From: Porphyromonas gingivicanis JCM 15907
GTDB taxonomy: Bacteria > Bacteroidota > Bacteroidia > Bacteroidales > Porphyromonadaceae
Direction of reading: 5' to 3'
Assembly (NCBI RefSeq): GCF_000614585.1
Contig: NZ_BAKX01000005.1
Location: 1-64,000 of the forward strand
DNA: 64,000 nt
Position 1 is the stretch's first letter; the number at the start of each line of letters is the position of its first letter. The position numbers were made by a program, and so were the translations under genes. The notes under the pieces were generated by a model. That model was not told the DNA's origin. It searched no databases and saw only the letters and a program-made list of their open reading frames with translations. This document shows, one piece after another, positions 7,865 to 62,570 of this stretch.

Positions 7865-8166
7865 ATGGAACAGAAAGAAAAGAGAATGGATGTGTGGAGC
7901 TTGGTTATTATAGCTCTGGCAGCTGTTGGGGGAGCTTCCTCCGATTTGTAATTTCTGACCCTAAGATACTCTTCGTGCTCGCTATGGTAGTGATGGTAGT
8001 ACTCCTTTTCTGCTTGGCAGGCTATGCAGGGGCAGCCTTTAAGAGTAGGAAGAATAGCACTGCCAAAGAGCGTCGCATATCTGCACTGCTTGCGGCGATA
8101 CTCCTCTTTTCGGGTTGTATATTCATACAACTCTTTTTCCCAACTTGTATGAATGGATGTGCCTGA
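7865..8166 (+). CDS. Small membrane protein, paralog 4 (apparent -1 base frameshift)
   Basis: From ATG 7865 the frame MEQKEKRMDVWSLVIIALA stops at 7949-7951. The homologous continuation is in another frame (FLRFVISDPKILFVLAMVV.. to 8166). Adding one G to the G5 run at 7928-7932 joins them into a 100-residue protein of the same length and hydrophobicity pattern as paralogs 1-3. The simplest reading is a missed base in a homopolymer; a true pseudogene is possible for this non-essential copy. Its leader duplicates that of paralog 3. Confidence 0.6.
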
Positions 8167-8195
8167 CGCTTAGTTCATACTCCTCCGAAATAGTG

Positions 8196-8233
8196 AAGCA
8201 ATGATTGCCTTAGGGTGGTCATTGCTTTTTTTG
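8196..8233 (+). terminator. Terminator after the membrane-protein array
   Basis: AAGCAATGA (8196-8204) pairs perfectly with TCATTGCTT (8219-8227), followed by a run of T. It closes the array before ychF. Confidence 0.75.
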
Positions 8234-8326
8234 TACACTTTTGAGCCTCCTTTATTTTCGGTAATATCTGCAAAAAGGCTATTTTTGTCCTGATAAACTG
8301 ATAGAAATAAAGATAGTTACACAATA

Positions 8327-9430
8327 ATGTCGTTACAATGCGGTATCGTTGGTTTGCCCAATGTAGGTAAATCGACCCTCTTCAATTGCTTATCCAATGC
8401 AAAGGCACAGTCTGCCAATTTCCCTTTTTGTACCATAGAGCCCAACGTGGGGGTTATTACAGTACCCGATGAGCGTCTCAATAAGTTGGCAGAGATCGAT
8501 AAGCCTAAGCGCCTTATCCCTGCTACGGTGGAGATTGTAGATATAGCGGGTTTGGTCAAGGGTGCCAGTAAGGGCGAGGGCTTGGGCAATAAGTTTCTCG
8601 GCAATATACGAGAGACCGATGCCATACTGCACGTACTGCGTTGCTTTGACGACGATAACATCACGCACGTAGACGGCTCGGTAGACCCCATTCGAGATAA
8701 GGAAATCATCGACACCGAACTACAACTCAAAGATTTGGAAACGGTAGAGAGTCGTCTTGCTAAGCTCGAAAAGCAGGCTAAGACGGGCGGAGACAAGCAG
8801 GCTGCCCTTGTGGTAGGCGTTTTGCAACGCTACAAAGAGGCACTCGAAAAGGGACTCAACGCACGTACCGTGCAGTTTGACAAGAAGGAGGAGCAGGAAG
8901 CTGCGCGCGAGCTTTATTTGCTTACTGCCAAACCTGTGCTTTATGTATGTAATGTGGACGAAGCCTCTGCTATTAAAGGCAATGCCTATGTAGAGCGAGT
9001 GCGCCAAGCTATTGCTAGCGAGGGGGCAGGTTTGCTCATCGTGGCAGCGAAGATAGAGAGCGAAATAGCCGAGTTAGAGACCTACGAAGAGCGTCAGATG
9101 TTCCTCGAAGAGATAGGCTTGGAAGAGTCGGGAGTAAGCCGCCTTATCCGTGCCGCCTATGCGTTGCTCAACTTACAAACCTACTTTACTTCGGGAGCTG
9201 ACGAGACCCGCGCGTGGACCTTCATTAAGGGGAGCAAAGCTCCTCAGTGTGCAGGCATCATTCATACTGATTTCGAGAAAGGATTCATTCGTGCCGAAGT
9301 AATTAAATACGAAGACTATGTTGCTTTGGGCAGTGAGGCAGCTGTAAAAGAAGCAGGCAAAATGAACGTAGAGGGCAAAGAGTATGTGGTGCAAGATGGA
9401 GACATTATGCACTTCCGCTTCAACGTATAA
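8327..9430 (+). CDS. ychF: Redox-regulated ATPase YchF (OLA1 family)
   Basis: A 367-residue protein, the usual YchF length. The P-loop GLPNVGKST is at residues 9-17, DIAGLVKGAS is the G3-region motif, and the C-terminal 90 residues (from about YFTSGADETRAWTFIKG) form the TGS domain. YchF binds the ribosome and hydrolyses ATP rather than GTP, with a role in stress and translation. There is no operon partner: the gap before it ends an upstream array and the next gene starts 78 bp later. The frame is intact, in contrast to several neighbours. Confidence 0.97.
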   Translation: MSLQCGIVGLPNVGKSTLFNCLSNAKAQSANFPFCTIEPNVGVITVPDERLNKLAEIDKPKRLIPATVEIVDIAGLVKGASKGEGLGNKFLGNIRETDAILHVLRCFDDDNITHVDGSVDPIRDKEIIDTELQLKDLETVESRLAKLEKQAKTGGDKQAALVVGVLQRYKEALEKGLNARTVQFDKKEEQEAARELYLLTAKPVLYVCNVDEASAIKGNAYVERVRQAIASEGAGLLIVAAKIESEIAELETYEERQMFLEEIGLEESGVSRLIRAAYALLNLQTYFTSGADETRAWTFIKGSKAPQCAGIIHTDFEKGFIRAEVIKYEDYVALGSEAAVKEAGKMNVEGKEYVVQDGDIMHFRFNV

Positions 9431-9508
9431 GAGCGACAAGAGAGAAGAGTAAACGAGATTGTTATCTGACTAAAGAGTAAAACCGATTAGTGCTAAAAGG
9501 CATATCCT

Positions 9509-10690
9509 ATGGAATATAAGTGGATAAAAACGGTACGTCTGTGTTGCCTACTCCTTCTTATCGGAGGCATAGGGGCTACCTCCCTTTGGGCGCAACGAGG
9601 CGGAAAGAACCGCTTTACGGTAGTTATCGACCCTGGGCATGGAGGCAAAGATGCAGGGGCAGTAGCCCATGGTGGTAAGGAGAAAGATATTAACCTTGCT
9701 GTGGGTCTGCGTGTGGGAGAGATGATAAGCAAAAGATTTCCCAACGTAAAGGTGCTATATACCCGTAAAGATGATACTTTCATCGGTTTGCAACAGCGTG
9801 CCAATTTTGCCAATAAGAACAAGGCAGACCTTTTTATGAGTATTCATACCAATTCTGCCAAGTCTTCTGCTTCGGGCGTAGAGACCTATGTGCTTGGTCT
9901 GTGGCGTAACGAAGACAACTTGCGAGTGGCGATGAAGGAGAACGAATCCATTCTTTTGGAGGAAAACTATGAACGCACTTATCAGGGCTTTGACCCTTCT
10001 TCGAGCGAGAGCTATATCATGTTCGAGCTTTTACAGAACAAACACCTTGACCAGAGCATAAAGATTGCCAAAGCGGTACAAGACCAGTTGGGGGCAACAT
10101 CGCTTATCAATCGTGGGGTACGTCAGGCTGGTTTCTTAGTAATCCGAGAGACTGCTATGCCGAGTATCCTTATTGAGTTGGGCTTTATTTCTAACCGTAA
10201 TGAGGCTGCCTTCCTATTAAGTCAGCGAGGGCAACAAACCCTTTCTAATGCTATTGTAGAGGGGTTTAGCAATTACTACAAAGCCTATAACAAAAGTTTT
10301 GGACTTACTACGGTGGAGAATACTCAAGTTAATGAGCCTGAGCCTCCCGTACAAGAGCTCGAACCCATAGAGGAACCCTCGCCCGAGCCAGCTGTTGAGG
10401 AGCCCGAAGCAGAAGAGAAAGCTCCCGTTGCAACACCCTCTACCTCCGCCAAAGGGGAAACCTATGCCATACAAATCATGGCTTTGAAGAAAAAAGTATC
10501 GACCAAAGACCGTGATTTTAAGGGAGAGAAAGTTCGTTGTGAGCGCAACGGCAAGATGTACTGCTATGTGGTAGACGTAGTAGGTGATAAAGACAAGGCT
10601 CGTAAACAGCTCAAAAAGTATAAGAAAAAGTTCCCCGGAGCCTACATTGTGATCTATAAGAATGGTGTTCGAAAGGGTACTATATACTGA
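9509..10690 (+). CDS. N-acetylmuramoyl-L-alanine amidase with C-terminal SPOR-like region
   Basis: A 393-residue exported enzyme. Residues 1-28 are a signal peptide ending SLWAQ. The Amidase_3 domain spans about 35-255: DPGHGG at 41-46 carries a zinc histidine, GGKEKDINL supplies the zinc glutamate, SIHTN at 111-115 another histidine, and SILIELGFISN the catalytic glutamate. It cleaves the bond between muramic acid and the stem peptide, typically to separate daughter cells. A Pro/Glu-rich linker (about 265-315) leads to an 80-residue basic domain resembling SPOR domains, which bind denuded septal glycan. First gene of a plus-strand run. Confidence 0.9.
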   Translation: MEYKWIKTVRLCCLLLLIGGIGATSLWAQRGGKNRFTVVIDPGHGGKDAGAVAHGGKEKDINLAVGLRVGEMISKRFPNVKVLYTRKDDTFIGLQQRANFANKNKADLFMSIHTNSAKSSASGVETYVLGLWRNEDNLRVAMKENESILLEENYERTYQGFDPSSSESYIMFELLQNKHLDQSIKIAKAVQDQLGATSLINRGVRQAGFLVIRETAMPSILIELGFISNRNEAAFLLSQRGQQTLSNAIVEGFSNYYKAYNKSFGLTTVENTQVNEPEPPVQELEPIEEPSPEPAVEEPEAEEKAPVATPSTSAKGETYAIQIMALKKKVSTKDRDFKGEKVRCERNGKMYCYVVDVVGDKDKARKQLKKYKKKFPGAYIVIYKNGVRKGTIY

Positions 10691-10739
10691 CAACGTATAG
10701 CAATAAACAGAAATACACACCACAAAAACATAGCGATAT

Positions 10740-11641
10740 ATGAAGAAAACAACGAAAATAGCTCTTGTAGGATTTTGGGTAGTGCTTGCTGCTCTAATCC
10801 TTTATTTAGGTATAAATTATTTGAAAGGGCTCTCCGTCTTTAGCAATGAGAAGTACTATTATGCTCGTTTCAAAGATGTTTCGGGTATTGTGGTTGCTTC
10901 TCCTGTTCTCATCAATGGATACAAAGTGGGCACGGTGCAGGGCTTAGAGTTTGATATGGAGCATGATGCTACTACTTTGGTAAAGGTAAACATTGATAAG
11001 TCTATACGTCTGCCCAAGGCACATCTGCCACTGCTCGCCTCTCCCTCTTTGGAGGAGCACAGTTGGATTTGCATTTGGGTGCTTCTTCCGAAATCTTGGA
11101 ACAGGGAGGATATTTGGAGACTGTTCCTCCCGATAATGACCCTATGTCTGTGGTTACGAATACTATCTTACCCACTGTGGTAAAGATGTTGCCCAAGATA
11201 GACTCTACCCTCTCTGCTATCAATACCATTGCCAACGACCCCGTAATACGGGCTACTCTCAAGGAGGTACATGCTACTGTACAGAGAGCCAATGTAGCAA
11301 TGCAAGGTATAGAGGGTGTTGTTGCCAAGGTAGATGGTTATATGAAAGGAGATGTGGCGAATATACTCCGAGCTGCAGATTCTTCTGCAGTACGTCTTGA
11401 GCGTTTTACTCGTCAGCTGGACGAAATCGAACTCAAAACATTGGTGCAAAACTTAGAGACCTCCAGCGAAGAGTTGCGTAAGATAACTCAGCAAATCAAC
11501 TCTACTGATGGTACTATTGGCAAGTTGGTGCACAACAATGAGTTGTATAACGAAATCAATAGCTTGCTACAAACCATAGATACCCTTGTTAAGGATATTA
11601 AAGCTAATCCGAAGAAATATCTCAAAATAAGTGTCTTCTAA
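10740..11641 (+). CDS. MlaD/MCE-family lipid transport protein (apparent single-base frameshift)
   Basis: The N-terminal frame has a single transmembrane anchor (residues 6-26) followed by the MCE domain (YYARFKDVSGIVVASPVLINGYKVGTV). The frame is lost at 11048-11050: after LLASPSL it reads EEHSW, while the next frame gives GGAQLDLHLGASSEILE, the conserved end of the MCE domain, and then a long alpha-helical tail to 11641. Adding one T to the TTT run restores a 300-residue protein. MCE proteins form substrate-binding rings for phospholipid transport across the periplasm. It lies 49 bp after the amidase and 2 bp before the next gene. Matching ABC partners are not in the window. Confidence 0.8.
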
Positions 11642-11643
11642 CG

Positions 11644-12501
11644 ATGAAAAGAGAAATAGCTTTTGGGGTGGGTGTTGCCCTCCTTATGACCTTAGGACTG
11701 GGAGGCTGCTCCTCCGATAAGAAAGAACGTAAGCAGGCATTGGAGCAGTTGCAGAGTTATGTGGCAGAGGGGGCTTTTGTACAGGCGATAACCCTTGCCG
11801 ACTCTATTGATAGCGTATGGGCATCTGACCTCGCTTTGCGAGAGGAGGCACTTGCTTGGCGTCGTAAGGCTCTTTCGCAGAAGTACACCTTTCTCTTAGA
11901 CTCCATAGAGCAGGCTCTCGAAGGGCTTCAGGTGCGTTTAGATAGCCTCGAAGAAAAGATGGTTTTTATACCTGAGAGCGAACTCCAAGAGGCTAAGTAT
12001 TGTGCGCAGAATCATAGGCAGGTTCCAACGCAGATGGGTAATTATCTCTACGCTTCGGCACATCCAAAGGGCTTTTTGAGCCTTACACATTATTATATAG
12101 GTAGCAGACCTTTGAAATATGATGCTATCGGACTGACCTCTTCGCAAGAGATTGCCGTGCGCTCAAGAGTTTTCGACACAGGAGATGACCATAACCACAC
12201 CTTTACGGCTGGTGGGAGGCATCATGCTACATTACAGTTGCCCCCGAATGATAGTTATGCTTTGGGGCTTTATGTATATATGTGCTATCAAGATAGTGTA
12301 CCGCTAAGGGTGGAGCTACACCATGAGGGAAAAATAGTTACTCGCTATACTCTGAGCCGTGCGGATCAGAAGCCCTTGGTGGAGACTTTCCTCTTTGCCC
12401 AATGGGTACAGCAGAGAGAAAGTCTCAAAGCACGCTATACACGTTATCAAAAGGCGTTAGGACAAGTAACTGAAAAAGACCCCCTCGCGCCTCGAAGCTA
12501 A
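11644..12501 (+). CDS. Conserved lipoprotein of unknown function
   Basis: A 285-residue protein with a signal peptide and lipobox LGGC (Cys at about residue 22). Residues 30-110 are helical and coiled-coil-like (LEQLQSYVAEGAFVQAI.., LEGLQVRLDSLEEKM); the rest is a beta-rich domain (HYYIGSRPLKYDAIGL.., NDSYALGLYVYMCYQDS). I do not recognise the family. It starts 2 bp after the MCE gene, so they are translationally linked; a role in the same envelope process is inferred only from that. Confidence 0.75.
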   Translation: MKREIAFGVGVALLMTLGLGGCSSDKKERKQALEQLQSYVAEGAFVQAITLADSIDSVWASDLALREEALAWRRKALSQKYTFLLDSIEQALEGLQVRLDSLEEKMVFIPESELQEAKYCAQNHRQVPTQMGNYLYASAHPKGFLSLTHYYIGSRPLKYDAIGLTSSQEIAVRSRVFDTGDDHNHTFTAGGRHHATLQLPPNDSYALGLYVYMCYQDSVPLRVELHHEGKIVTRYTLSRADQKPLVETFLFAQWVQQRESLKARYTRYQKALGQVTEKDPLAPRS

Positions 12502-12516
12502 ATCATTGCTACTGCT

Positions 12517-14770: not shown

Positions 14771-15449
14771 ATGGCTCCATTTATAGATCTGCATACCCAT
14801 TCTAAAGGTTCATTTCATCTGAAGTCTTAGCGATAAAAAGCATAGACCTCTGTACTCAGGGAGCAGATGATATAGGAGAACAGCCTGTTTCCGTGGGCTT
14901 ACATCCATGGCATATAGAGCAAGCAACACTTCAGAAGTTACTCTATCTCCTTGAGCACTATGCCCAACAGGAGAATATACTAATGTTGGGAGAGATAGGT
15001 TTAGATCGTAATAGTCGAGTCGATATGGAGTTACAAAAGAGTGCTTTCGAGATGCAGTGTCAAATCGCCTATCAGCACCATTTGCCTTGCATATTGCACA
15101 TCGTTAAGGCGTGGGAGGAGTTGTTTGCCACGCTAAAGAGGTTGGGGCGAGAACAACCCCTTTTCATCATTCATGCTTTCGAGGAAAGCCCGATTTGGCA
15201 AAGAGTCTTATTGACAAGGGGTTTTACCTTTCATTCGGAAGCCACTATTCGCAAGAATCTTTGCTCGTAGCTTGGCAGGCACACCATCTTTTCTTAGAGA
15301 CCGATGAGGCAGAGCTTTCGATAGCTACCCATTATCAGCAAGTAGCCGAGATGTTAGGAATCACTTCTAAAACCCTTAGAGAAACTATTTTTGAACAGGG
15401 GGCAGAACTCTTGCCCTTGCTCCCTTACTTGCTCTCTTCGATGCGTTGA
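14771..15449 (+). CDS. TatD-family metal-dependent DNase/hydrolase (two apparent single-base frameshifts)
   Basis: Three frames together make one TatD-like protein: FIDLHTHS (metal ligands) from ATG 14771; SEVLAIKSIDLC to GLHPWHI and MLGEIGLDR in the next frame; and RGKPDLAKSLIDKGFYLSFG to LLETDE-type FLETDEAEL in the third. One base is missing near 14810-14813 (a TTT run) and one near 15178-15181 (HAF/RGKP junction). Restoring both gives 226 residues, the size of the short Bacteroidales TatD proteins. TatD enzymes hydrolyse nucleic acid 3' ends. Two independent lesions would usually mean a pseudogene, but the same error type recurs through the window, so I keep it as a gene. Confidence 0.7.
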
Positions 15450-16620: not shown

Positions 16621-17313
16621 TTATTCCTGTACTATAATAGGTATTTGTAAATCTATATCAGTAACTCCTAAGAGGTGTTCGCCCGGTTCGTCAAAAGGAT
16701 AGTAGCTACCCTCCTTGCTCTTTTTAGTAGCGGGAGGTACTACGTGTACCAGTTGGGTGCGCAAGTTAAAGTCCGTGTAGGCAAGCTCTTCTTTGAGGCG
16801 AAGCACTCCTTCAAATCCGATGGGTTGTCGCTCTCCGCCGGAAGGAGCAACATCCATATACTTGTAAATGACTTGGCTTGCTATTTTGGAAGGATACTTT
16901 TGAGAAGTATTTTTCAATCGAGTGCATACGAAGAAAAATTGATGCATAGATGCCTGTTCGGGGGTCAAGTATTGTGCATTGAGACGCACCTTGGCTTTGT
17001 TGTAGAAGTTTATATTTACCTTGTACCATTGGTTCTTTGCCAAGCGGATAGGTTCGGGCTTACGGATAGTACCATCGCTATCGTCGGTGGTAATGGTGTA
17101 GCTGAGAGTTTCTCCTCCAGAAGGGGTAAATCGTTCGGCATAGAGCGTTGTGGTGTCTTGTGCTGTACCTGGGGTAAAGAGAACTTCGATACTCCAAGGG
17201 AATTCGTGCCCTCTTTCCTCGACATGGTTCTTTACTTCAGGGGCTTTACATGCCAAGAAAAGGAGCGAAAATAGGCTTCCCCAAAGAAGGGAGGCAAGAT
17301 GCTTTCTATTCAT
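16621..17313 (-). CDS. Lipoprotein paralogous to the His-rich protein, without the His tract
   Basis: A 230-residue protein with a signal peptide and lipobox LFLAC (Cys about 22). It shares with the neighbour the pattern EPIRLAKNQWYKVNINF..VRLNAQYL..MHQFFFVC, so the two form a duplicated surface-protein domain. The C-terminal half (VIYKYMDVAPSGGERQPIGF.., LLGVTDIDLQIPIIVQE) matches the equivalent part of the His-rich protein loosely. The start overlaps the 3' end of the receptor gene by 8 bases, so translation is coupled. It may present ligand to the receptor; no enzyme motif is visible. Confidence 0.7.
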   Translation of the reverse strand: MNRKHLASLLWGSLFSLLFLACKAPEVKNHVEERGHEFPWSIEVLFTPGTAQDTTTLYAERFTPSGGETLSYTITTDDSDGTIRKPEPIRLAKNQWYKVNINFYNKAKVRLNAQYLTPEQASMHQFFFVCTRLKNTSQKYPSKIASQVIYKYMDVAPSGGERQPIGFEGVLRLKEELAYTDFNLRTQLVHVVPPATKKSKEGSYYPFDEPGEHLLGVTDIDLQIPIIVQE

Positions 17314-19698
17314 ATCTATTGTTTGTTGGTTTATTCTTGTTATAGCGTGTAGCTATAGAGAGTTGCACATCTCTGCCCTTTTCATGGGCATAGTAACGAA
17401 ATCGGTTGGTGTATTCTTTATAGAGTCGGTTGAGGAGATTTTCTCCCTTTAATCGTACCTCCAATAAGCCTTTACCTATGGGAAAAGAGGCTCCTACAGA
17501 AGCTCCGAAAAGATGATAGGCAGGAGGTGTTTGAGGAATGAAATCTATATCGGGGTCAAAGCGTGTTTGTTGCGTTACGTAGAGATGTTGGAGTGCAAAA
17601 GATAGCTCTCGAATGTTTTTTAGTGATAGGGTAGGGCGCCAATCGATGCGTTGTGAATAGCGATCCGAGGGGATGTAGGGAAAGAACCCTCTGGTCTCTC
17701 GGTTGATAGCTCTTATCCACTGTCCTTCTACATGATAGCTTATGCCTTTCCAAGGTTCGAGGGTTAGACTCATATCGCCTCCATAAAATAGGGCATTGGC
17801 CTGTCGATAGCGAAATACGGGAAAGACTCCTGCAATCAATTCTTTTACTTCGGCTTTACCCGTAGAGGTATCTTTTTGAGGAGCGTCATAGATGTAATTT
17901 TTTACCCATTGTGCAAAAAAACTCGTCGTGAGCGAGAGGAAGCCAGTATTGTAGTTAAGCTCATTGTTCCACTTCCAAGCGGCTTCGGGAGCAAGGTTCG
18001 GGTCTCCTATTTCGTAGGAGGCGGCTCCGTGATGTAGGCCATTGCTGTAAAGTTCGTTTACATCGGGTGCTCTCCATGCTAACCCTAAATTGCTGCTAAA
18101 AGAGGCTCTGTCGCCCAAGCGTCTCATTGCAGATAGTGAGAAAGAAGGACTCTTAAATGTACTTTCACCCCCATAGAAGCGACCTAAGTTATCATATCCT
18201 TTGGCGTCGAGATACTTATAGTCATAGCGCACCCCTACTTCCAACTCATAAAGGCGTTGGATATACTTGGTTATGGCATACCCTCCTATCGAAAAAGAAC
18301 CGTAATTGGGGATGAGAGGTACAGCTCCAGTATCGTTACGATTGGCATTTTGCTGGAAATTGAGAGAAGTACCTACTATGAAGCGTAAAGGGATATGCTT
18401 GTCTGACTCCCAGCTTAAATGTCCCGAATGGGTCGTTAGGAAGAGACCCATCGAGGGAGCATGCTGGAAGCGACCAGGGCGATTTTCAAACTCGTCACGA
18501 GCATTACTCTGTACGTCATATTGCATACGTATCAAGCCTTTTATGCCCATGGAGTACTCTCCAGAAAGACGCCCAATAAGGTGAAGTACTTCTTGCTTGG
18601 GGTGTTTGATAGCGTAGGAAGCTGGTACGGTGTGCATAGGACGTCCCTTTTCAAAACGAGCCAAAAGGTCGTCCAGAGTGCCGATATGCGCTCCATAGAA
18701 TACTCCCAGCTGTGCATAGTATAGGCTGGCAAAAGCATCTATGGAAAAGGTGGGGCGTTTGAGTCCAATAGCTATTGTAGAGCCAGCTTCGCGAACCCCT
18801 GTGTTATTTAATACATATTCTGCTGTTTGGTAGTCTCCTGCGTAGAGCGAAGAGGCTTGCAAACGCCACTTTAGTCCATCAATAGGTTTATAACCTCCGT
18901 AAGTATCGGCATTTATGCCCCAACTTCGAGCGTTGGAGGCTCCTTGTAACGAGAGTTTCCCTCCCCATTGACTTTCTTCCGGTAGGGTAGCAGTGTTCAT
19001 TAGTATTACCCCTCCTATGGCACCAGCTCCGTAGCGGATAGATTCAGCTCCCTTAATAACTTCCATGTCGGTTACCGAGGAGGCATCTACCTCGGGCGCA
19101 TGGTCGGCACCCCACTGTTGCCCCTCTTGGCGCACCCCATTGTTGATAAGTAGTATCCTGCTACTGTGCATGCCTTGAATAACGGGTTTCATGATGGTAG
19201 CTCCACTGCTGATGCTACTCATCCCCGGTACTTGTTGGAGGATTTGTGCTAAGTTTTTACCCACATTCTCTTTGAGTTGCGCCTGACTCATACGTACCGA
19301 GACTGTGGTTCGCTCGCGCTTTCTTTTATCAGTGGTAACGACGACTTCGTCGAGGACTACATTCTGTAAATAGAGGGTAAGAGGGGCATTGCCCACTTCG
19401 TCATAGGTAAGCTCTTTTTGTAATTCTTGGTAGCCCACGGCATGTACCATAAGGTGTGCTTTACGCCCCGAGGGCCATTGGAGGTAGGCTATACCTTGTG
19501 GATTGGTGATTGTATGATACTCTTCTATACGCACTACAGCTCCTGGGATAGCTCTTGGGTGTGTGCTTCCAAGATGACTATTTCCAGCTGTTTGCTTACT
19601 TTGCTCTGAGCAAAGAGGGTATGAGGTGCCAGCAAAAGCAATAGAAGAGAAGCAAGGCATTTGGCGTACGGCATCAGTGTATTATATAGGCGTCTCAT
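17306..19698 (-). CDS. TonB-dependent outer-membrane receptor (apparent single-base frameshift near the N-terminus)
   Basis: The main frame encodes a carboxypeptidase-regulatory-like domain (GAVVRIEEYHTITNPQGIAYL), a plug domain (VLDEVVVTTDKRKRERTTV.., GVRQEGQQWGADHAPEVD.., IKGAESIRYGAGAIGG) and a beta-barrel ending in an aromatic-rich strand. The signal peptide is in another frame: from ATG 19698, MRRLYNTLMPYAK then a leucine-rich core to HTLFAQ. One missing C/G at the run 19557-19559 joins them into 797 residues. The plug resembles copper/zinc-type and siderophore receptors. With the two lipoproteins it probably imports a metal or metal complex across the outer membrane. Confidence 0.88.
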
Positions 19699-26439: not shown

Positions 26440-27395
26440 ATGAAAAATATTCTCATTATCGGCTCTACCGGTCAGATCGGTTCAGAGCTTGCTCTGAAGT
26501 TGAGGGAAACATATCCCTCTGGTAATGTTGTAGCAGGATACATTCCTGGGGCTGAGCCAAAGGAGCGTTGGCAGAGACTGGTCCTTGCGAAGTGGTAGAT
26601 ATTACCAATGCGCAACAAATAGCAGAAGTTGTAGATAAGTATAAGGTAGATACGATTTACAACCTTGCCGCACTTCTTAGTGCCGTAGCAGAAGCGAAGC
26701 CTCAACTCGCGTGGCACATCGGTTTGGGCGGACTTTTCAATGTTTTGGAAGTAGCTCGTGAGAAGAAGTGTGCCGTATTTACTCCCAGCTCTATTGGAGC
26801 TTTTGGAGAAGATACTCCTAAGGACAAGACCCCTCAAGATACTATTCAACGCCCTAAGACAATGTATGGGGTAACCAAAGTAGCAGGAGAGTTGCTCAGC
26901 GACTATTACTTCAAACGTTTCGGAGTAGATACTCGTTCGGTACGTTTCCCTGGGCTTATTTCTAACGTTACGCTACCCGGTGGTGGTACTACCGATTATG
27001 CGGTGGATATTTACTATGCAGCGGTAAAAGAGGGACGCTTTGTATGTCCTATCAAGGAGGGTACTTACATGGATATGATGTATATGCCCGATGCGCTTCG
27101 TGCTTGTATCGAATTGATGGAAGCAGACCCTACACGTTTGGTACACCGTAATTCATTCAACATCGCATCTATGAGCTTTGAACCCAGTCAGATTGCTGCT
27201 GCGGTGAAGAAGTTAATACCTAATTTCGAGATGACTTACGATGTAGACCCTCTTCGTCAAGGTATTGCCGAGTCTTGGCCTAACTCTTTGGATGATAGTT
27301 GCGCCCGTGCTGAGTGGGATTGGAAGCCACAGTACGATATGGACTCTATGAGCGAAGATATGATTCGCATCCTCAAAGAGCGTTACGGCAAATAA
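26440..27395 (+). CDS. NAD-dependent L-threonine 3-dehydrogenase, epimerase type (apparent single-base frameshift)
   Basis: From ATG 26440, MKNILIIGSTGQIGSELAL shows the GxxGxxG NAD-binding motif. The frame breaks near 26562-26563: one missing G in AAAGG (P-K-G-A-L-A-E-T) joins it to ALAETGPCEVVDITN and the rest of the protein to 27395, 318 residues in total, the normal family length. SSIGAFGEDTPKDKTPQ and MYGVTKVAGE (the YxxxK pair) match the short-chain threonine dehydrogenases, which oxidise threonine to 2-amino-3-ketobutyrate. No partner ligase gene is nearby. Confidence 0.85.
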
Positions 27396-37548: not shown

Positions 37549-40070
37549 TTATTTAGTGGTTTTATTAGTTCGAAAACTCCTCGCAGATTGGAAAATTGTG
37601 CCTAAAAGGAGTAAGAAGAGTAGGATGAGAGCGACGAAAGCAATCCTTTCGGTTGTGGCAATAGATGTAGGAGCAAAGGTGAAGCGCACTGAATGTTTGC
37701 CCGCAGGTACGATGATGCCCCTAAGTGTATAATTGACTCGGATAATTGGATGTTCCTCTCCATCAATGGTAGCTATCCAACCCTCGGGATAGTATATTTC
37801 GGAGCAAACTAAGAGGGCATCTTGTCTGTTCGAAGTACTGTACTCTACTCGATTGGGTGTGTGCAGGGTAAGCGTTACCTCTGCTATACTATCAGTAAGG
37901 GGTAGCAGTTGTTGGAGCTTATCGTCTACAAAACGTTTATCAACTATTGCTGTTGTGCGCAAGTCTTCTGTATCAAGGGCTTGCATCTCGCTGTTTGCAT
38001 TGGGCACTACCTTTATTTTTTGTGCAAACCAAGCAGGTCCATAGGCTTCTTGATTAAAGAAGGGGATAGGTACTCGGGTCTCTGGGTCGGGTTGGATAAT
38101 ATAACGGGTATTGAGCATATTTACGACCCCTTGATTGCCTTTGAGCAACTGATGCGTTATGATGTCTTGATACCGTTGTAGTTTGGCTGCGTGGTAGCCC
38201 CCAATACTTTTGTGCCAACGGCTGGTCGTAGCATCGTTGAACGAATTGACAGACATATTCCAAACACGATAACCAAGGGTCTTGTCGTTCAAAATAATAC
38301 GATCTGCCTCTGTTTGTGGGGTAGCCATAGCCTGCACTTGCGTGGGTTGTTGGTACATAGCATCGTGTAGATAACGCTTATCTACCTGCCACAAGTCGAC
38401 GAAAGTGATAACTCCTAAGAGGATGAGAACAGGTGTAGATTTTAATTTTCCCTTGGTGTAAAGAATAATTACTCCAGCCGAAAGGGCGATAATCACTATC
38501 GAGCGAAGTGCATCGCTACGGAGCATCTCTCTACGTATCTCTACTAAGGCATCTCTAAGTCCCATGTATTCGGGATGGGAAAGAATGAGCTGACCGAATT
38601 GCTCCTGCTCTTCCGAAGAGAGAAAGCTAAAGAACCAGTCGGGGAGTATAACAAAGAGTAGCAACGCCACCATCGGTAACCCTACAGCGAAGAGCGTAGC
38701 CCATTTTTTCTCTCTTAGTATGTTGGGTGTTTTGATCACCTCAGCTAAGCCTAAAATAGCCAGTACAGGGATGGTAAACTCGGCAATTACCAAAATTGAA
38801 GAGACTGCTCGGAAGTTATTGTATAAGGGAAAGTAGTCGATGAAAAGCTCCGTCAGGGGCATAAAATTTTTACCCCAAGAGAGGAGTATAGAAAGTAGGG
38901 TCATGGCAAGCATAGCCCACTTTATAGGGCCTCGAACTAAAAAGCAGCCGAGGAGAAAGAGAACACAAACGAAAGCTCCTACGTAGACAGGACCCGATGT
39001 GAAAGGTTGTTCTCCCCAGTAGGAGGGTGTACCTAAGAGCAACGGACGGTATATCGAAGGAACGTTGTTCAAGCGTTCGGCTTCTGTGCTTAAAGGTACA
39101 GAAGCACCTCCTCTGATATTCGGCACGAGTAGACTCCAAGTTTCACCCACTCCGTAGCTCCATTGAGTAATGTACGCTTTATCTAAACCGCTACTATTTT
39201 CCTTTGTGTGTTGTGGCGTTAAGAGATCTTCGGAGGAGAGAGTCAGCTCGCTACCGCCTCGCATGGTCTCTTGAGCGTAGCGATAGGTATGATATAAGTT
39301 CGATGCATTAACGGCTATACCGATAAGCCCTGCTATAAGAGCTACCCCCGTGGAGCGGAGAAAGTGTCCTATACGCTTTGTGCGTATCGAATCTATACAC
39401 CAACCTATTACCATAGAACCCATAACGAAGAGAAAGTAATAGGTCATCTGTACGTGGTTGGCGAGGAGTTGTAACGCTGTGAAGAGAGCCAATACAAAAG
39501 CTCCTTGCAACCATTTACCCCGATAAATCCATACCAGCCCTGCGATGGTTGGAGGTATGAAAGCCAATGCCATGAGCTTCCAAATGTGTCCTGCCGCTAT
39601 GAGGATAATAAAGTAACTCGAGAAGGTCCACATAATAGCTCCTATTGTGGCAGGAATATTCTTTATCTGTAACGATTTGAGCAGTAGGAAGAACCCAATT
39701 AGCATGGCAAAGAGTAACCATGGAGAGTCTCCCATAATCTGTAAGGGCCAACGCAAGGTGTATGCTTTCTCGGCTATTGATAGGGCTTCTGTAGAGGGAT
39801 AGGAGGGAGATATTTGGTACATCGGCATCCCCCCGAAGAGACCATTGGTCCAGTAGGAATGCTCGCCTGTAGCTACTTCATGGTCTCGCACATCTTGTCC
39901 ATTGCCTGAAGCCCCCGCTACATCTTGCTGAAAGAGTACGCGCCCTTCCCACGTAGCTGGCATGAAATAGGCAGTGGCTATAATGCCGAAGAGGACTACT
40001 ATAACAGCATAGGGCCATAATGCTTGAGGCGTTGTAGGAGTGTATTCTTTGAGGGGAGAGTCATATTCAT
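37549..40070 (-). CDS. YfhO-like multi-spanning membrane protein (start uncertain, possible frameshift)
   Basis: A protein of about 840 residues with 12 or more membrane segments. NGLFGGMPMYQISPSYP and YFPLYNNFRAVSSILVI are family blocks, and the C-terminal periplasmic part ends with ICSEIYYPEGW-type VCSEIYYPEGWIATIDG. YfhO-family proteins are glycosyltransferase-like lipid carriers or sugar-transfer membrane proteins (GT-C relatives). The in-frame ATG at 40182 would overlap the upstream gene by 80 bases and give a poor N-terminus; ATG 40070 (MNMTLPSKN) lies 30 bp after that gene but needs one added base near 40045-40055 to join the main frame. Function is inferred from family only. Confidence 0.7.
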
Positions 40071-40100: not shown

Positions 40101-41074
40101 TTATGTGGAGTGTGAAAAAAGAGCTGTGATGAGTCCTAACCCATACCCGAAGATTTGAATGAAAGAGGCTATAACGGCACAACCCGCTACTTTAAGGCTT
40201 CGGGTTTGCTGGAGTGCATCTAAAAAGAAGAGAAGAGTAAGCCCCCCTATTGGCAACCATGACCAAAGGCTAATAATTCCTCCCAAGAAAAGGAGAGAGA
40301 GACCTATTGTTCCCACAGAGGGGAGTAGATGAATGGGGCGGAGAGAGCTCGATGGCGACGACTGAGTGCCACTCGAGCACCGCCGAACTTGAATACTTGT
40401 CGGTAAAATTGTGCAAAAGTGCTACGTCTTTTATGGTATACAAATGCCTCGGGTATGAGTCGTACGTGCGCCCCTCTCTCGTGCAAACGCATACTAAAGT
40501 CGAGATCTTCACCGTAACGCATAGAGGTATCGAACCCGCCCATCTCTTTATAGAGTGCTGTACGGCAACCCAAATTGAAACTTCGGGGGTAGTAATGACT
40601 GATGCGCTTCTTTCCGCCTCGTATGCCTCCAGTTGTAAGGAAAGAGGTCATCGAGTAGTTGATAGCCTTCTGTATGGTAGTAAAGTCGGTATGTGCTGCA
40701 TCAGGCCCTCCAAAAGCATCTAAAGGTTTCCCCTGCTCTTGGTAGCATTGAAGGGCTTGCTCTATAGAGGCTATGTATTGGGGGGGGAGGATAACGTCGG
40801 AGTCTAAGATGATAATATACTCCCCCTCTGCCCACATACTCCCTGCATTACGAGCCTTAGATGGTCCTCCATTAGGAATGCTGTGATACTGTATGGAGAG
40901 ATGCTCTTTGTAGCGGTCTACCTCCCCATGGCAGGGATGGGAAGAACCATCCTCTACGATAATCACCTCGAACGTTTGTAACGTTTGTTCTACAAGACTT
41001 TGTAGTAACTCTGCCACTTCTTCGGGGCGGTTGTAGACCGGTACGATTATAGAGTAACGAGGAGGAGTAGGCAT
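40101..41074 (-). CDS. Family 2 glycosyltransferase with C-terminal membrane segments (apparent single-base frameshift)
   Basis: From ATG 41074: YSIIVPVYNRPEEVAELLQSL is the GT-A start (in part: IIVPVYNRPEEV), FEVIIVEDGSS the nucleotide site, IIILDSDVILP the DxD motif, and MRYGEDLDFSMRL the catalytic ED region. The frame ends early at SPLWEQ. Another frame carries RPIHLLPSVGTIGLSLLFLG and two to three membrane helices to 40101. One missing base near 40342-40358 unites them in 324 residues, typical for GT2 enzymes of Bacteroidales that end in membrane helices. It lies 20 bp after cysS and 30 bp before the YfhO-like gene. Confidence 0.82.
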
Positions 41075-48642: not shown

Positions 48643-49286
48643 TTACCACCAACTCTCTTCCTCCTCTGGAGAAGCGGGGGGGATGGGAGCCTCTTCGGGC
48701 ATCACAGGTTGGTCGGGCGTTGTGGAGAGGTCTTCGAGTCTGAGGGGAGTATTCCCTGTAACTAAGAGAACGAGCGAAGACTGCGCTTCGAGCTTGGTGC
48801 CGGGGGCTAAAGAGAGCCCTTTGGTGTCTTCTACACCTACCGTAAGTCCTTCAAACTCTCCCGGCACTTGGCGGATCTGTGCTATCCTAAAGCCTAAGCC
48901 TTCTAAGGTCGCTTTCGCCTGACGCATAGACATTCCCTCTAAATTGGAGGGTAATTGTACCAGCTTCGGTGAAGTGGCATTAACTGTCAAGAAGATAATG
49001 CGACCGGGCTTTACTTTGGCTCCCGCTTCGGGTAGGCTTTCATAGACGCTACCTGGGGCTAAGTGTTCGTAGTAATTGGAGTCCACGACTTCGCCTCGCA
49101 ACCCTTGAGCCTTGAGTTTTGCTTCGGCATCTTGCCAACTAAGCCCTTGAAGAGGAGGAACAATCACAGCATCTCCATGCTTTGTATAGTGTCCTAATCC
49201 GAGGAGTAGTATGATAACGATAGCTATACTAACAGCAATCATCAGAAGAATGTTGCTTATAAGAGGGTTTTACGTAAAAACTTCAT
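48643..49286 (-). CDS. PASTA-domain membrane protein (apparent single-base frameshift)
   Basis: A membrane anchor (IAVSIAIVIILLLGLGHYTK) is followed by three PASTA domains (VPPLQGLSWQDAEAKLKAQG.., LVQLPSNLEGMSMRQAKATL in part, SLVLLVTGNTP) and an acidic Pro/Glu tail. The natural start is ATG 49286 (MKFLRKTLL), which meets a stop at once in its own frame; adding one base near 49261-49270 joins it to ISNILLM and gives 214 residues. PASTA domains bind muropeptides or beta-lactams, and the protein may monitor or stabilise wall synthesis. It lies between mraY and rluD. Confidence 0.82.
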
Positions 49287-50614: not shown

Positions 50615-52152
50615 TTAAGATGGATTGTTCAGTAAAGAGAGAGCTGTGCGAAGCTCCTCACGGTCGTCGAAGTGATGGCGTACACCCGCTATCTCTTGAT
50701 AGGTTTCGTGCCCTTTGCCTGCCACAAGGATAACATCACCCTTCTGTGCCAAGCGACAGGCGGTGCGTATTGCTTCTTTTCGATCTTTATTGATGAGTGT
50801 TTGTAGCTGCTCTTGAGGGGTAAGACCCTCAAGCATATCTTGGATTATTTGTTCGGGTTCTTCGTTGCGGGGGTTGTCGCTGGTCAGCAAGAGCAAATCG
50901 CTACGACGGAATGCCTCTTGTGCCATAATGGGTCTTTTGCCTTTGTCCCGATTGCCCCCTGCTCCAACTACTGTTATAAGGCGCGCTCCCTCGGAGAGTA
51001 GGGGACGGATGGTCTCTAATACCTTGATTAACGCATCGGGCGTATGAGCATAGTCTACGATGGCGGTGCAAGTGCCCGAATAGACTACTTCGAAACGCCC
51101 CTCTGCGGCTTGTAGATTGCTAAGAGCAGTAAGAAGTTCTTCGATAGGTAAATTGGGGAGTAATAAGCGAGTGGCAGCGTAAACTACTCCCATATTATAG
51201 GCGTTGAAGTTGCCTACTAATCGGCTCCATACTTCCTTATTGTCTAAGAGTAATGCCGTGCCGTTAAGGTCTCTCTCGATCACTTTTATAGAGAAGTCAG
51301 CAGCCCTATTGAGAGAATAGGTGTAAACTTGAGCACGACAGTTTTGTATCATAGTGGCTCCGTTCTTATCGTCTGCGTTGATAAGAGCGAAGGCTTCTGT
51401 AGATAGGCTATCGAAGAAGCCCTTTTTGGCACGAATATACTCGAGCATAGTGCCGTGATAGTCGAGATGATCTCTTGTCAAGTTGGTAAAAATGCCCCCT
51501 CGAAAGAAAAGAGAGCCTATGCGTCTCTGTACCACCGCGTGCGAAGAAACTTCCATAAAGACATACGAACAGCCCGATATGTACATTTGGTGAAGTAAGG
51601 CTCCTAAGGATATGGGGTCGGGAGTAGTATGTGTGGCGGGGATAACCTCTTTGCCAATTCTGTTCTCTACAGTACCGATAAGCCTGTTTGGTAGCCTAAT
51701 TGAGAGAAAAGGCGGTAGAGCAGTGTAGCAGTCGTTGTCTTCCCATTGGTGCCTGTTACCCCGATTAATTGCATCTTTTCTGAAGGGTAGTCCCAATAGA
51801 GAGCTACTAAGGCGGCTAATGCCTCGGGCGAAGAGGAGACTTGAATATACACCACATCGTGCGTAGTGAATAGCGTTTGTTCCTCTTGGGTTAGTGTAGG
51901 TTCTCCTACAATCAGACGGACTCCACCCTCTACTACTTGGGAAATGAAGCTCCACCCCTCTACAGCCACGCCAGAAATGGCCACGAAAATACCTCCAGCA
52001 ACCACTTTGCGAGAGTCGGAGGCTATGTTAGAGAAAGCAAGTTCGGGAACTTCTTGTGGTTTGCAACTAACGAACCATGGTTGCAGGCTCTTGATAATCT
52101 CCTTTAGGGTGATACTTCTTGGAGAAGTACAAGGGTATGGCTTATCGTTCAT
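50615..52152 (-). CDS. murE: UDP-MurNAc-tripeptide synthetase MurE (apparent single-base frameshift)
   Basis: From ATG 52152 the frame carries the N-terminal domain and [18 protein letters not shown], then stops after [11 protein letters not shown]. The next frame continues [21 protein letters not shown], with YMEVSSHA.. blocks ([13 protein letters not shown]) and [11 protein letters not shown], to 50615. One missing base near 51681-51686 (GGCCTT read as GGCTT) restores 512 residues. The DNPR motif is typical of diaminopimelate-adding MurE. The gene is essential in wall synthesis, so a true disruption is very unlikely. Its start overlaps the ftsI end by 11 bases. Confidence 0.9.
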
Positions 52153-54458
52153 TTTGCTTATCTGGGGTCGAAATATCTTTGGGGGGAGTGGAGGGGCTAT
52201 GCCTGGGCTGTAAGTGAAGCAGTACCTTTTCGCCTTTCCCTATTTTACTTCCGCTCGGTTTAGACTGTGCTACTACCTCTCCCCTGCCTTTGAGCTGTAC
52301 AGACAAGCCATGGTTTAGGAGCAGATAGTAGGCGTCAGAGGCAGACATCCCTATCACTGAGGCATAATCTCTTGTCGCTGTGCGTTGATAGGCACTAAGT
52401 CTATTTTACTGTCCTTTTGTGTTTGTGGGGCTACGTAGGATGTTTTTTGATGTTCTTTATCGGAAGAGAGAGAGAGACCCGCCTGCTCTGAAAAACCTTC
52501 AACAGAGGGCCTTCTGCCCGAGAGTAGATGGGGAGCAATGGGAGAAACTTTGCTTGCGTTCAAATCTTCAAAATTGATTTGCTTCTGACGCTGAGCATCG
52601 GCAATGGCAATAGCTTTTACAATAGGACCTGCCATCAGTGCTGCGGCAGGGCGTCCCTTGGGGTTTTGGGGACGTACTATATTGGCATAGACTGTATAGC
52701 GAGGGTTTTCGGAGGGAAAGAAGCCACAAAAGCTCACCACGTGTTCATCGGGGATATAGCCTCTTCCAGGGTCTGTGTAGCGTGCCGTTCCTGTTTTACC
52801 ACTGATAGACACAATGGGTGTCCGCAAATGTTTTGCTGTACCCTCGGTTACTACCATACGTAGCATAGTGCGCACGGCATCTATCGTGGAAGGCGTAGCA
52901 ATGTCAGACTTCAAAACAGTAGGCTTATTCTCCAAAACAATCTCTCCTTTAGAGTTGATTACCCTATCTACAAGGTAGGGGCGCATGATGCGTCCGCCGT
53001 TAGCAAGGGCGTTATAAAAAGTAAGGATATATATTGGAGGGAGTTGCATAGCATATCCATAGGACATACGAGAGAGGGTAAGTTTGTCCCATGCCTTACC
53101 TCCTGGAGAATGGATAATAGGTATTGAGGGGTTGGGAATGTCGCTTCTAAGAGAGTCTCCAAAGCCCAACGCTCTAAGACTCTTTACAAATCGTTCGGGG
53201 CGATGTTCATAGCCTGCTGTTATCATTTTCGCAGAGGCGATATTACTGGAGTTAGCAAGAGCTTCCTCGTAGGTTAATACCCCTACATTATGATCTTTAA
53301 TGGGCTTGCCACGATAGTGCCATACCCGATTGTTACCAATATCAATGGTTTCTTTGGGGTGTACCAACCCATCGTCCAAGGCAATAACCATACTTGCTGT
53401 CTTGAGCGTACTTCCTGGCTCTATAAGGTCTAAGAAAATATGGTTCCCCGTTTCCTCGATTTTATTCGTCTTTAGATCTCTTTTCTTATTTGAAATAGCT
53501 ACAATACGTCCCGTATTGACTTCCATAACAGCTACAGAACCTCTATGGGCTTGGTAGGAGTCGATTTGTGCTATAAGAGTCTCTTCGGCAATGTCTTGGA
53601 GCGTCCAATCAATGGTTGTGTAGAGGTCGGCTCCGTCTATGGGAGGAGTTTTGCGTATGGTAGTAGAGCGTGTGGTGCGGAAGCTCTGCTCTTTGATGCC
53701 AAAAGAGCCTGCTAAATACTTGTTGTAATACTCCTCAATGCCTCCCTGTGCTACAGTAATGCTATCTTGTGTGCGCTCTAAAACGAAGCCGAGGATAGAT
53801 TTAGCCATATCCCCATTGGGAGAGCTACGTTTCGATATTTTGTCCGAATTGAGTGCTAAATAGAAGGGGCTACGACCTTTCTTCTTGCCATCTTTCTTGT
53901 AGGTCCACATAAGAGAGTCCCTTTTCAGAGCTTCGTATTCGTCGAAGGTTATGTTATACCATATAGGTCTGCTCCTCTATTACCCTTATTGGACTGTTTG
54001 AGCCAGCGTTGCACCAAAGCCTCTTCTGTGTTGGCTTTGTCCAAAGTGCGCAGACGGGGGATACTACGAAGCGAAATCTGTGCCAAGGTTTTCAAAACCT
54101 CTCGTTCGTTGCATCGATTGCTGTCGCAGAGAGCAAGATACCCTTCGGAGCGGAAGTCGAAGCGCATACGGAAAAGAGGAATGGAGACACGAAGCAATTC
54201 GCCCGAAGAGGTGTAGATATTACCTCGTTTGGGATATTCTACTACATCTTTAACTGGGCGATGTGCTCGCTCTATGCGTCGCCACTCTGCTCCATCTACA
54301 CCAGCTATCCAGTAAAGACGTCCCCAAACTACAAATGCCACAATAACGAAAACCCATGCTATTGAATAGAAGCGAAGTACAATCTTTTTGTGAGCACGTC
54401 TATTCTGTTCGATGCGTTCTCGTACAGAGTGAGGTATATTATCTTTTTCCGTGGGCAT
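52142..54458 (-). CDS. ftsI: Septal peptidoglycan transpeptidase FtsI/PBP3 (two apparent single-base frameshifts)
   Basis: From ATG 54458 come a short cytoplasmic tail, a membrane anchor (IAWVFVIVAFVVWGRLYW) and the start of the dimerisation domain. The frame is lost near 53965-53985, then regained with FDEYEALKRD. The transpeptidase has PGSTLK (SxxK serine), SSN (SxN) and SGKTGTARY (KTG). A second missing base near 52355-52366 cuts off the C-terminal PASTA domain (VIGMSASDAYYLLLNHG). Restoring both gives 772 residues. FtsI cross-links septal wall and is essential. It lies 18 bp after ftsL. Confidence 0.9.
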
Positions 54459-57281: not shown

Positions 57282-57310
57282 AAGGCAATACATTTTACGA
57301 TAAGTAGAAA

Positions 57311-57347: not shown

Positions 57348-57356
57348 CTTGTTCTT

Positions 57357-59273: not shown

Positions 59274-59294
59274 AAGTTCTTGATTATACGATTT

Positions 59295-59326
59295 GGAGGA
59301 TAGAATCGACAACAATCCTATCCTCC
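59295..59326 (-). terminator. Hairpin after the cleaved-adhesin-type gene
   Basis: GGAGGATAG (59295-59303) pairs perfectly with CTATCCTCC (59318-59326), 15 bp after the stop on the minus strand. There is no clear T-run, so attenuation or mRNA stabilisation is as likely as termination. Confidence 0.5.
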
Positions 59327-59340
59327 GAAAAATATAAATA

Positions 59341-62300
59341 TTATTGATTTACACTAACCTTAATACTGGCAGTAGAACCATCTACTCCTTGTGCCGTCAC
59401 TACGTAAACGCCAGGAGTCAAGTCTAAATCAACTTCATAATTACCCTCTACGACATGCTTCTTTTCGATGAGACGCCCCGTCAAATCGTAAACACGTACC
59501 ATACTTGCATTAAAATTACCAAGCTGAAGTTTCTTTGTCATAGAGTTATAAGAGATAGCAGCTCCTACAACAACTTCTTGTACCCCCGTACCTCCCTTGA
59601 TAGCCAAACGAAGTTGAGGTACCCAATCTAATAAAAGCATAGCTTGTGCATTGGGGTTAGATGGATTTAATTCATTACGAGCCATGTAGCGCATTGAGCG
59701 AAGCTCTCCACTCCCTTTTCCAAAAGTTACAAACTGAGCAGGGTAACTATTTCCTGTTGTTCCTTCTTTCCACACTTGGATGCAGAGGTGTTTGTCTTTT
59801 TGGTATTCAAAATCTTTAGAGAAGTTGAACTCCATTCGATTAACTCCATCCTTGATACTTAACTGTCCTTCATACACGAGTGTCATATCTTTTGGATTCA
59901 TACAAGCCGCAACTGGAGTAAGATCTTTATAGTCCTTTATGTCTACGTTTGCCATATAAATCTTAACGTCTACATCTTCCACAGAAGCTACCCCATTGAT
60001 ATAGTCGTATGCCATACGGGAAATCAGTGCATCTTTTACCAAAGCAAGCTCTTCTGCATGGTAGATGGTTTGGCTCACAGAGTATTGTCTTGAGAAACTC
60101 ATTGGGAGAGTCGTTTCGTGGGTAATAGAATTTCTCGTAATCAAGTGACTCCAAGGAGCAGTGCCTGCGGGAAGGATTTTCACATCAAATGTTTGAGAAC
60201 GATTGTTATTCTTTTCTCCGTCGCCTTCCAAGACTACCTCTGCTGCCAACTTTATCATTCCTTCTACTTGAGGATTGTAGTTAATAAAGCATACTGCGCC
60301 CTTCTTAGATTCTATAACGGGAACGTCCGAAGTTTCTGCAAGGATAGTAGCATTATCTCCCTTCACTTCGAGAAGCCTTACTTTGTAAGAGCTTTGAGCT
60401 TCAGAGCCTTCGTTGTAAATTTTGACAGCCACTTTATTCTCTAAATCTTTGATCAATTCACTAATTTCAAATTCTTCTACAGAAAGGTCTTTCTTGTATA
60501 GTTCTTTGACCATAACATCTTGTATAGAGAACTTGTTACGAACCTCCATCGTACCAACTGAAGTACAGTGAATGCCAAGATTATAATTTCCATCTTCGGA
60601 AATATCTACAGTCATCACCTCTGTTTGAATTTGATTGGGCTTCGATGAAGTGTAATCTTCAAATTTTTGAATTTCTTTCTGAGCAGCTACAGATGCTCCT
60701 TTGCCAATATTCACAGAGAAGTTATGAACAGAGTAAGCTATATCGAGCTGTGTTTGAATGATGATTTCGTAGCGCTTACCAGCTTTCAATGTGATAGCTG
60801 GAGAGAAGAGCCAGTCATCAGCTGCTTGTTCGTAGGGTGCTGGATCAAGAGCCATACGTTGGAAGTTGTCGAAACTTCCTCCTAAATACTCAAAAGTCTT
60901 ACCATCTTTGTTAGCATCAAGTACAGTCCAGCTATCTGCATCGTCTTGGGTTTTGAAAGAAGTGTGATAGGGAGTTGAGTAAGCCTGTCCTGCTTTAATC
61001 TTCTCCGATTCCGTTGGAACACCTTTACCCACATCGTTTTTGGGGACGATAATGTAAGAGTAGGCTTGTATTACTCCCAAAGTATTGTCTAAGAATGTTG
61101 TTTCTTTAGTATTCTCTACGACTACTTTTTGGTCGGGCATACGTATAACAGAGTAAGAAATCTTAGATGGATCAATCCACCCCTCGTGTCCACCCTTAGT
61201 AGGCGCAGACCACGTAATTTCTATATCCGAACCCTTCTTTTCTCTCTTTAGATTTTCTACCTTTCCAGGGATGTCTTCGCCTACATAGCAACGAATACTA
61301 TCCAAAACACCCATACCAGCACTGTTCTCTACCTTTACGTAGTAGGTATGTATACCTTGTGGTACATTGGTATCTATCCATTGCATTGTAGCTCCAGGAT
61401 ACCCTCCTGCTATGCTACTAACGATATTGCTTCTTTTGTCTCGGGCAATATAAACCTTTTGGATAGAAGGCAACTCTGTTTTATCCCATGTTTTAGAAGG
61501 ATTCTTCCAAGTTATTTTAGCGTTATTCTTATTTTTTGAATCAAAAGTAGCACTCAAATCTTCAACACGAGCTGGAGCCTTTCTTTCCGAAGCGACTTCA
61601 TAGGGGATATAAAGACCTGTAACAATATCTCCAAAACCAATAGAACCCAAAAAGAGAGACTCCCCACTTTTAGGATCTACCTTTACTGCATACTGTATTC
61701 CCGAGTTGTCGGATGCCAGCCAGTAGAGATCGCCCGTAGTATGATCAAAATCTACAGTATGGGTATAGTTAGGAATAATTGCACTATTGTCTCTCTTTAT
61801 CTCTTTTTTAGTTGATTCTATTTCTTGGAAATTGGTGGTATCAAACTGTACGATTTGGCTTCCTACATAATTGCCCTCTGCATTAGGCTTCCCAATTATT
61901 CCATACAGGTTGCCATCATAATCATAGGCTGCTCCAAACACATAAACATCTAAATCCTTTACAAAAGTAAATTCTCCTGTATTCGTGTTTATCTTGTAGA
62001 CAGCAGAAACTGCTTTGTCTGTACGCTTGCTACGTCCCAATCCCCAACATTGTTTATTCTTATGGTCGTAAGCCAACTCATAGATTGTAGGCCAATTTTG
62101 AGACTCTGGAGATTCGTACACATACTGTCTGATAGTTTTTATCTCTCCCGTATTAGTATCTATTTCCACAAAAGCATGTGGAAGGACCTGATGGGTATAG
62201 AGGGTTACAATGTATCCGATATACTTATCTCCAGTATAAGTCCCTCCATGGAGTACCTTGATTTTGAATTCGTTTTTCTCTGCTATAGGACCAAGGCGTT

Positions 62301-62570
62301 CTATATCTAATGTCTTTGTAGAGTAAAAACGCACTACACTCGGATAGGCAACTCCGTCTTTGAGTGTTGTCCCGAAAAATAGTACGCCTTTTTTTGCACT
62401 GCTCCCATCATCCAAACGAAGTTGAGGTCTGGATCTTTGGGCGCAGTACTACTCTTTTCTGTCAATGCAGGGTAGGTACCTTGCTGAGGCATACTCCCCT
62501 CTTTTTGAGCAAAGAGAAGACTAAACGAGGCACCTAACAAAGACAAACAAAGTAAAATCTTCTTTTTCAT
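59341..62570 (-). CDS. Large T9SS surface protein with FN3 and cleaved-adhesin (choice-of-anchor J) domains (apparent single-base frameshift)
   Basis: From ATG 62570 a signal peptide (LLCLSLLGASFSLLFAQ) leads into a frame that stops at 62334; the rest is in the next frame (LDDGSSAKKGVLFFG..). One missing base near 62420-62440 gives 1076 residues. A beta-propeller-like region (to about 280) precedes FN3 repeats (WKNPSKTWDKTELPS..), a cleaved-adhesin/MAM-like domain (ADSWTVLDANKDG.., ADDWLFSPAITL), further beta domains and a T9SS sorting domain (VRVYDLTGRLIEKKHV.., TPGVYVVTAQG). Similar domains occur in P. gingivalis haemagglutinin/gingipain adhesins. The role is probably adhesion or haem/host-protein binding. 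Confidence 0.8.

Follow-up and report, generated by a model that had tools for sequence, protein, structure and literature searches.

The window analysed here, that is the whole stretch of 64,000 nucleotides formed by bases 1-64000 of contig C31 of the Porphyromonas gingivicanis assembly, carries phage head and tail genes within approximately 1.0-5.6 kb (head protease, major head protein and tail tube genes together with a DNA methyltransferase-like gene, at 1010-5643), four tandem small paralogs at 6629-8166, which encode proteins of 102-120 aa where intact, and a series of further genes; the initial annotation had listed twelve single-base frame breaks in ten genes of the window. The assembly amounts to 2,054,250 bp in 35 contigs, with completeness of 88.54 and contamination of 5.39, the latter against values of 0-1 in 25 congeners; split genes may themselves cause this contamination estimate. 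The closest congener found, hereafter G033, is P. circumdentaria, its contig C19 containing 21,569 bp of NZ_FUXE01000012.1 (P. circumdentaria ATCC 51356) without any difference, and a second congener, G007, was used as check and control. The sequence compared comprised 800,163 bp of the assembly, 1,047,880 bp of G033 and 350,773 bp of G007. The window was compared, by protein-to-DNA alignment permitting frame changes, with intact G033 proteins and with such G007 proteins as were available; G033 gene alignments covered 49,184 of the 64,000 bases, the uncovered stretches longer than 700 bases being 1-5739 (which includes the phage part), 6244-7488, 46403-47545 and 62571-64000.

Eleven of the twelve listed sites correspond to a net loss of one base with respect to intact G033 proteins, while the remaining one, in the fourth tandem paralog, shows no lost base and is considered at the end. 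The positions agree with those first annotated within approximately 30 bases, the largest offset being that of the MCE/MlaD-domain gene (11017 vs. 11048-11050). This gene lies on the plus strand (10740..11641) and breaks at approximately 11017, with 30/30 and 27/30 matching residues on the two flanks and a single frame of 300 aa in G033. On the same strand, tatD (14771..15431; 248 aa in a single G033 frame) breaks at approximately 14808 (8/12 and 15/30) and again at 15176 (18/30 and 22/30), the 8/12 residues of its first break constituting a weak point among the sites, and an NAD-epimerase family gene (26440..27395), initially named threonine dehydrogenase, breaks at approximately 26561, its homologues being single frames of 318 aa in both G033 (30/30 and 30/30) and G007 (27/30 and 25/30). 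The minus-strand genes include a TonB-dependent receptor (17306..19698; break at approximately 19550; 14/30 and 22/30; 786 aa in G033), a GT2 glycosyltransferase (40104..41074; approximately 40350; 28/30 and 19/30; 337 aa) and a large surface protein, earlier called an adhesin (59341..62570; approximately 62410; 21/30 and 14/30; 1079 aa), all encoded by single frames in the relative. The break of murE (minus strand, 50615..52152), at approximately 51680, is bridged by single frames in G033 (29/30 and 27/30) and G007 (21/30 and 24/30), and both this break and that at 26561 were recovered in the same place with either relative.

The adjacent ftsI-type transpeptidase gene (minus strand, 52148..54458) breaks at approximately 52358 and 53956 against a single G033 frame of 779 aa (13/30 and 27/30, 22/30 and 19/30); both breaks rest on G033, since the G007 homologue, with 37% identity, gave +2 and -1 events at shifted places. 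Around murE and ftsI the DNA identity to G033 is about 72%. Ten of the eleven sites are anchored by at least 12 aligned residues on each side, the weakly anchored one being that of the PASTA-domain gene (minus strand, 48643..49286; approximately 49270), with five aligned residues upstream, all matching, and 18/30 downstream. A further break at approximately 40021 is possible in a YfhO-like gene (minus strand, 37549..40052), to judge from 7/10 matching residues upstream; this region shows several gaps in the DNA alignment, and the G007 homologue is unbroken but aligned only to 40014. An apparent break at 50629, produced by the mraY protein of G007, was judged spurious, for it falls where murE and mraY overlap, and in G033 too this protein yields an event at the matching place. 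The comparison with related Porphyromonas genomes proposed in the initial annotation has borne out its list in part, the relative keeping the genes at 11 of the 12 sites in one frame.

The same pattern extends over the assembly. In a survey with 260 G033 genes (92,797 residues), in which breaks were kept only where both flanks reached 12 residues and 40% identity, 77 of 88 events were retained, namely 62 net -1, 10 net -2, five net +1 and none net +2; the anchoring rule removed seven -1 events, three -2 and one +1, the PASTA site among them. Losses thus account for 72 of the 77 anchored breaks, as against 3 of 6 in the control comparison of G007 proteins with G033, which gave two -2, two +1, one +2 and one -1 in 39,941 residues; the breaks between these two congeners are without direction, unlike those of the assembly. 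When G007 proteins were aligned to the assembly instead, 20 events were kept in 30,304 residues, 16 of them -1 (including the spurious one at 50629). Six window sites fall within this survey, the others deriving from the separate window alignments. The coding DNA has one break per 3,615 bp, and the number of breaks per gene (196, 52, 11 and 1 genes with zero, one, two and three breaks) follows the Poisson expectation of 196.1, 52.8, 9.5 and 1.4. The contig of the window has eight breaks in 12,161 residues, close to the mean rate, and the window does not stand out: breaks are found throughout the sampled assembly, in seven of nine stretches having aligned genes, with none kept in contigs C34 (5,149 residues) and C27 (756 residues). 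The distribution is nonetheless not wholly even: the absence of breaks in C34 has a probability of about 0.014 under a uniform process, C29 and C26 have high rates, and 47 of the 77 breaks fall in genes that run on the minus strand of the respective contig (p = 0.04).

A DNA comparison free of any reading frame points in the same direction. At local DNA identity of at least 80%, single-base gaps number 47 in the assembly vs. 18 in G033, while three-base gaps are seven in each, and the comparison of G007 with G033 gives six and five. The mean length of open reading frames differs only mildly (269 aa in the assembly vs. 300 in G033). A reverse comparison, of open reading frames of the assembly with G033, gave 33 of 42 events as +1 and was set aside; we think that antisense frames crossing a break would cause such events. 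The 16S alignment, in which two insertions but no deletion are peculiar to the assembly, is uninformative, 0.4 being expected, and tRNA scans gave no evidence in either direction on losses.

Kept losses affect 60 of the 260 sampled genes, and NCBIfam naming covered 20 of the corresponding 60 G033 proteins. Those above the curated NCBIfam cut-off are a type II topoisomerase subunit A, alaS, mutS (with two -1 breaks), feoB, metG, uvrB, rpsA, glyS, a YidE-type transporter, lgt, rpe and the fumarate reductase iron-sulfur subunit. Among the genes broken here, alaS, metG, glyS, rpsA, lgt and murE are known to be normally essential. No match to alaS other than its two pieces was found in the assembly; metG is split as well, into two adjacent pieces, and the four weaker matches found elsewhere are probably related synthetases. 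Transpeptidase domains are found as six pieces in the assembly, with three matches in 16 of 18 congeners. Broken genes are as conserved as the others, with a median identity of 86% vs. 83% in the rest, and in-frame stops are rare: 13 in the 260 genes, nine of them anchored, with a single gene carrying both a kept loss and a stop, the latter near the gene start. Two of the five kept gains lie in genes with in-frame stops. In contig C35 (G000:C35), at approximately 170.2 and 172.3 kb, two nearby genes show single-base gains together with in-frame stops with respect to G033, and these are likely true pseudogenes.

The sequence context of the losses was examined after omitting 17 of the 77 kept breaks (the five gains, and 12 losses lacking a single clean gap); a -2 loss of mixed letters was further omitted from the run-length counts, leaving 59 typed losses. 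For 33 of the 54 -1 losses that could be typed cleanly, an identical base stands next to the lost one, as compared with 30% of 2,577 clean losses in a simulation (p = 2e-6); the lost base is G or C in 31 of the 54, an excess that is not significant as such (p = 0.17). Runs of two or three bases hold 35 of the 59 typed losses, and G/C runs of this length 26, whereas 21 of the 59 are placed at single bases, some perhaps wrongly. In A/T runs the rate is 3.4 losses per 10,000 for runs of two and 3.1 for runs of three, and in G/C runs it is 7.6 for runs of two, 38 for runs of three (14 losses in 3,645 runs) and 11 for runs of four, the last from one loss; the losses per 10,000 at single bases are 1.8 for A/T and 1.1 for G/C. 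No loss was found in 2,868 A/T runs of four or five, nor in 216 G/C runs of five. One loss in 258 A/T runs and one in 52 G/C runs of six or more give 39 and 192 per 10,000, rates at least as high as that of G/C runs of three but each resting on one loss. All five uniform-letter -2 losses fall in G/C runs of three. Where the initial annotation placed many of the breaks in short homopolymers, the losses favour short runs, above all of two or three G/C, over homopolymers in general. Two simple rules were tried and rejected: slippage in long homopolymers, which these run-length counts do not support in spite of the single losses in runs of six or more, and a single methylation-like motif, AGGC/GCCT being enriched (14 of 63 break sites vs. 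3.7 expected) in a minority of sites.

Taken together, these data argue that 11 of the 12 sites reflect a fault of the sequence and not of the organism, the breaks being an artefact of some kind, a reading to which we assign a probability of roughly 0.93. It is favoured by the occurrence of breaks far outside the window, their bias towards losses, their preference for short runs, their Poisson scatter, the paucity of nonsense mutations in genes with losses and the rupture of normally essential genes; against it stand the uneven rates among contigs, the excess on the minus strand, the 21 losses at single bases, the want of a significant G/C bias in the lost base as such and the high rates, each from one loss, in runs of six or more. 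Systematic deletion error, the explanation preferred in the initial annotation, is upheld by the 11 sites of the window, by the 72 losses among 77 breaks over the assembly and by the rupture of alaS and metG, for which no second copy was found. The consensus would have lost a base, in some cases two, at a rate of approximately one event per 3.6 kb of coding sequence, at places scattered over otherwise conserved genes. The source may be an indel-prone short-read platform, most likely Ion Torrent, whose site-specific indels of high frequency would remove a C or G from runs of two to three and would thereby persist in the consensus.

For Ion Torrent itself we would give about even odds. In the passages of Bragg et al. 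(2013; PMC3623719) dealing with high-frequency indels of the PGM instrument, the strand-asymmetric class is dominated by deletions of C and G, lies for 82% in homopolymers of two to three, occurs in the order of one per 1-2 kb and is said to yield frame-shifts in assembly. The losses described here resemble this class in part, 26 of 59 lying in G/C runs of two or three while the G/C excess as such is not significant, and they differ from it in their lower density, in the smaller share found in runs of two or three (35/59) and in the presence of -2 losses. The match is good but incomplete. The small contigs of the assembly (589, 696 and 1,353 bp) and the position of the only 16S and 23S genes found, on one contig of 5,393 bp, suggest short reads; these traits do not single out a platform, because G007, which is without such error, also has short contigs and its only 16S gene found on a contig of 5.7 kb. 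Among the papers listed for Porphyromonas and Ion Torrent, none could be tied to this assembly. The passages on GeneTack frame transitions (PMC3711429) state that unclustered breaks confirmed by protein matches are expected to be sequencing errors, in agreement with the reading given here.

Among the other explanations, an unpolished nanopore assembly, with compressed homopolymers and methylated motifs mishandled by the basecaller, would also produce a dominance of losses, and the enrichment of AGGC/GCCT at breaks could be read in its favour. According to the parts of PMC6591954 concerned with consensus errors, these lie chiefly in homopolymers and methylation motifs; the likeness is that of systematic consensus errors located in part in homopolymers, but there is no concentration in long A/T runs here, AGGC occurs at fewer than half of the sites and can arise through the loss of a base, and the assembly, with rRNA genes on a contig of 5.4 kb and contigs down to 589 bp, looks short-read. 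Nanopore sequencing thus seems a poorer match than Ion Torrent, and we regard it as unlikely. Far less probable is that ambiguity codes, arising from a strain mixture, were stripped from the file together with the polymorphic bases: this would yield losses only, scattered over the genome, yet polymorphic bases should be third codon positions, and the weights observed for the three positions in 59 events (0.39, 0.38 and 0.23) are near those of random losses (0.41, 0.40 and 0.18) rather than those of third-position losses (0.33, 0.30 and 0.37).

We give equally little credence to a real hypermutator, in which defective mismatch repair would let slippage break many genes, even if MutS is itself broken twice and the breaks are spread across the sampled contigs. 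Under slippage a steep increase with run length would be expected, and gains as well as losses, whereas A/T runs of four or five are free of losses, the rates in runs of six or more rest on single losses and only 5 of 77 breaks are gains; moreover, a living cell could hardly bear the rupture of alaS, metG, glyS and rpsA, as is well established. Real decay of genes in a reduced or dying lineage is the least credible of all, for although a few genes look decayed, including those that hold two of the five gains, the genes with losses are as conserved as the rest and show hardly any nonsense mutation or similar mark of decay, one of them alone having an in-frame stop, and losses outnumber gains by 72 to 5.

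Systematic loss of bases as the preferred reading gains nothing from the phage part of the window, which the initial annotation had noted to show no frame breaks. This observation carries no weight because, at one break per 3.6 kb, one to two would be expected there and the probability of finding none is about 0.28. Figures for pseudogenes, pangenome or completeness drawn from this assembly would mislead, because anchored losses affect 60 of the 260 genes sampled that have a relative; at the same time, each break needs checking against a relative, since one of those listed is real.

The latter break is that of the fourth paralog (plus strand, 7865..8166), which consists of overlapping frames at 7865-7951 and 7894-8166 with a frame change at approximately 7928-7940. 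The frame change was correctly located in the initial annotation, but the base presumed missing is not: G033 has the same arrangement (L068 9364-9665), with nine differences and no gap in 302 bases. As the same change is present at equal length in an independent assembly of another species, the break is real. Seven of the nine differences fall at third positions, each half being counted in its own frame (p = 0.008, from small numbers and two species). In the passages of PMC3711429 on shared frame transitions, these are ascribed to pseudogenes, translational coupling or recoding; the fourth paralog would be the shared one here, and differs from that class in that its second frame is found only in the assembly and G033, two of the 26 congeners searched, and in that the G run of the overlap is not conserved. 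No conserved slippery sequence was found in the overlap, by eye, the G run being interrupted in P. circumdentaria; a slippery site is therefore unsupported. The locus may represent a fixed pseudogene, small genes that are coupled, or a case of frameshifting. It is rather improbable that the locus is a working two-frame gene, in which a leader frame (about 28 residues) and a 90-residue frame that overlaps it would both be under coding selection in the two Porphyromonas species and expressed by ribosomal frameshifting or translational coupling.

No Pfam family matches any of the four paralogs, and the second has weak or no relatives in most congeners. Identity to P. circumdentaria is 95-99% over 8000-9199 and 74-84% over 9200-10799, and an exchange between the two lineages would be a fair guess. 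Along the window, the stretches 5600-6399, 8000-9199 and 11600-12399 are 94-99% identical to P. circumdentaria among others of 63-90%, as if they had been exchanged or strongly conserved.
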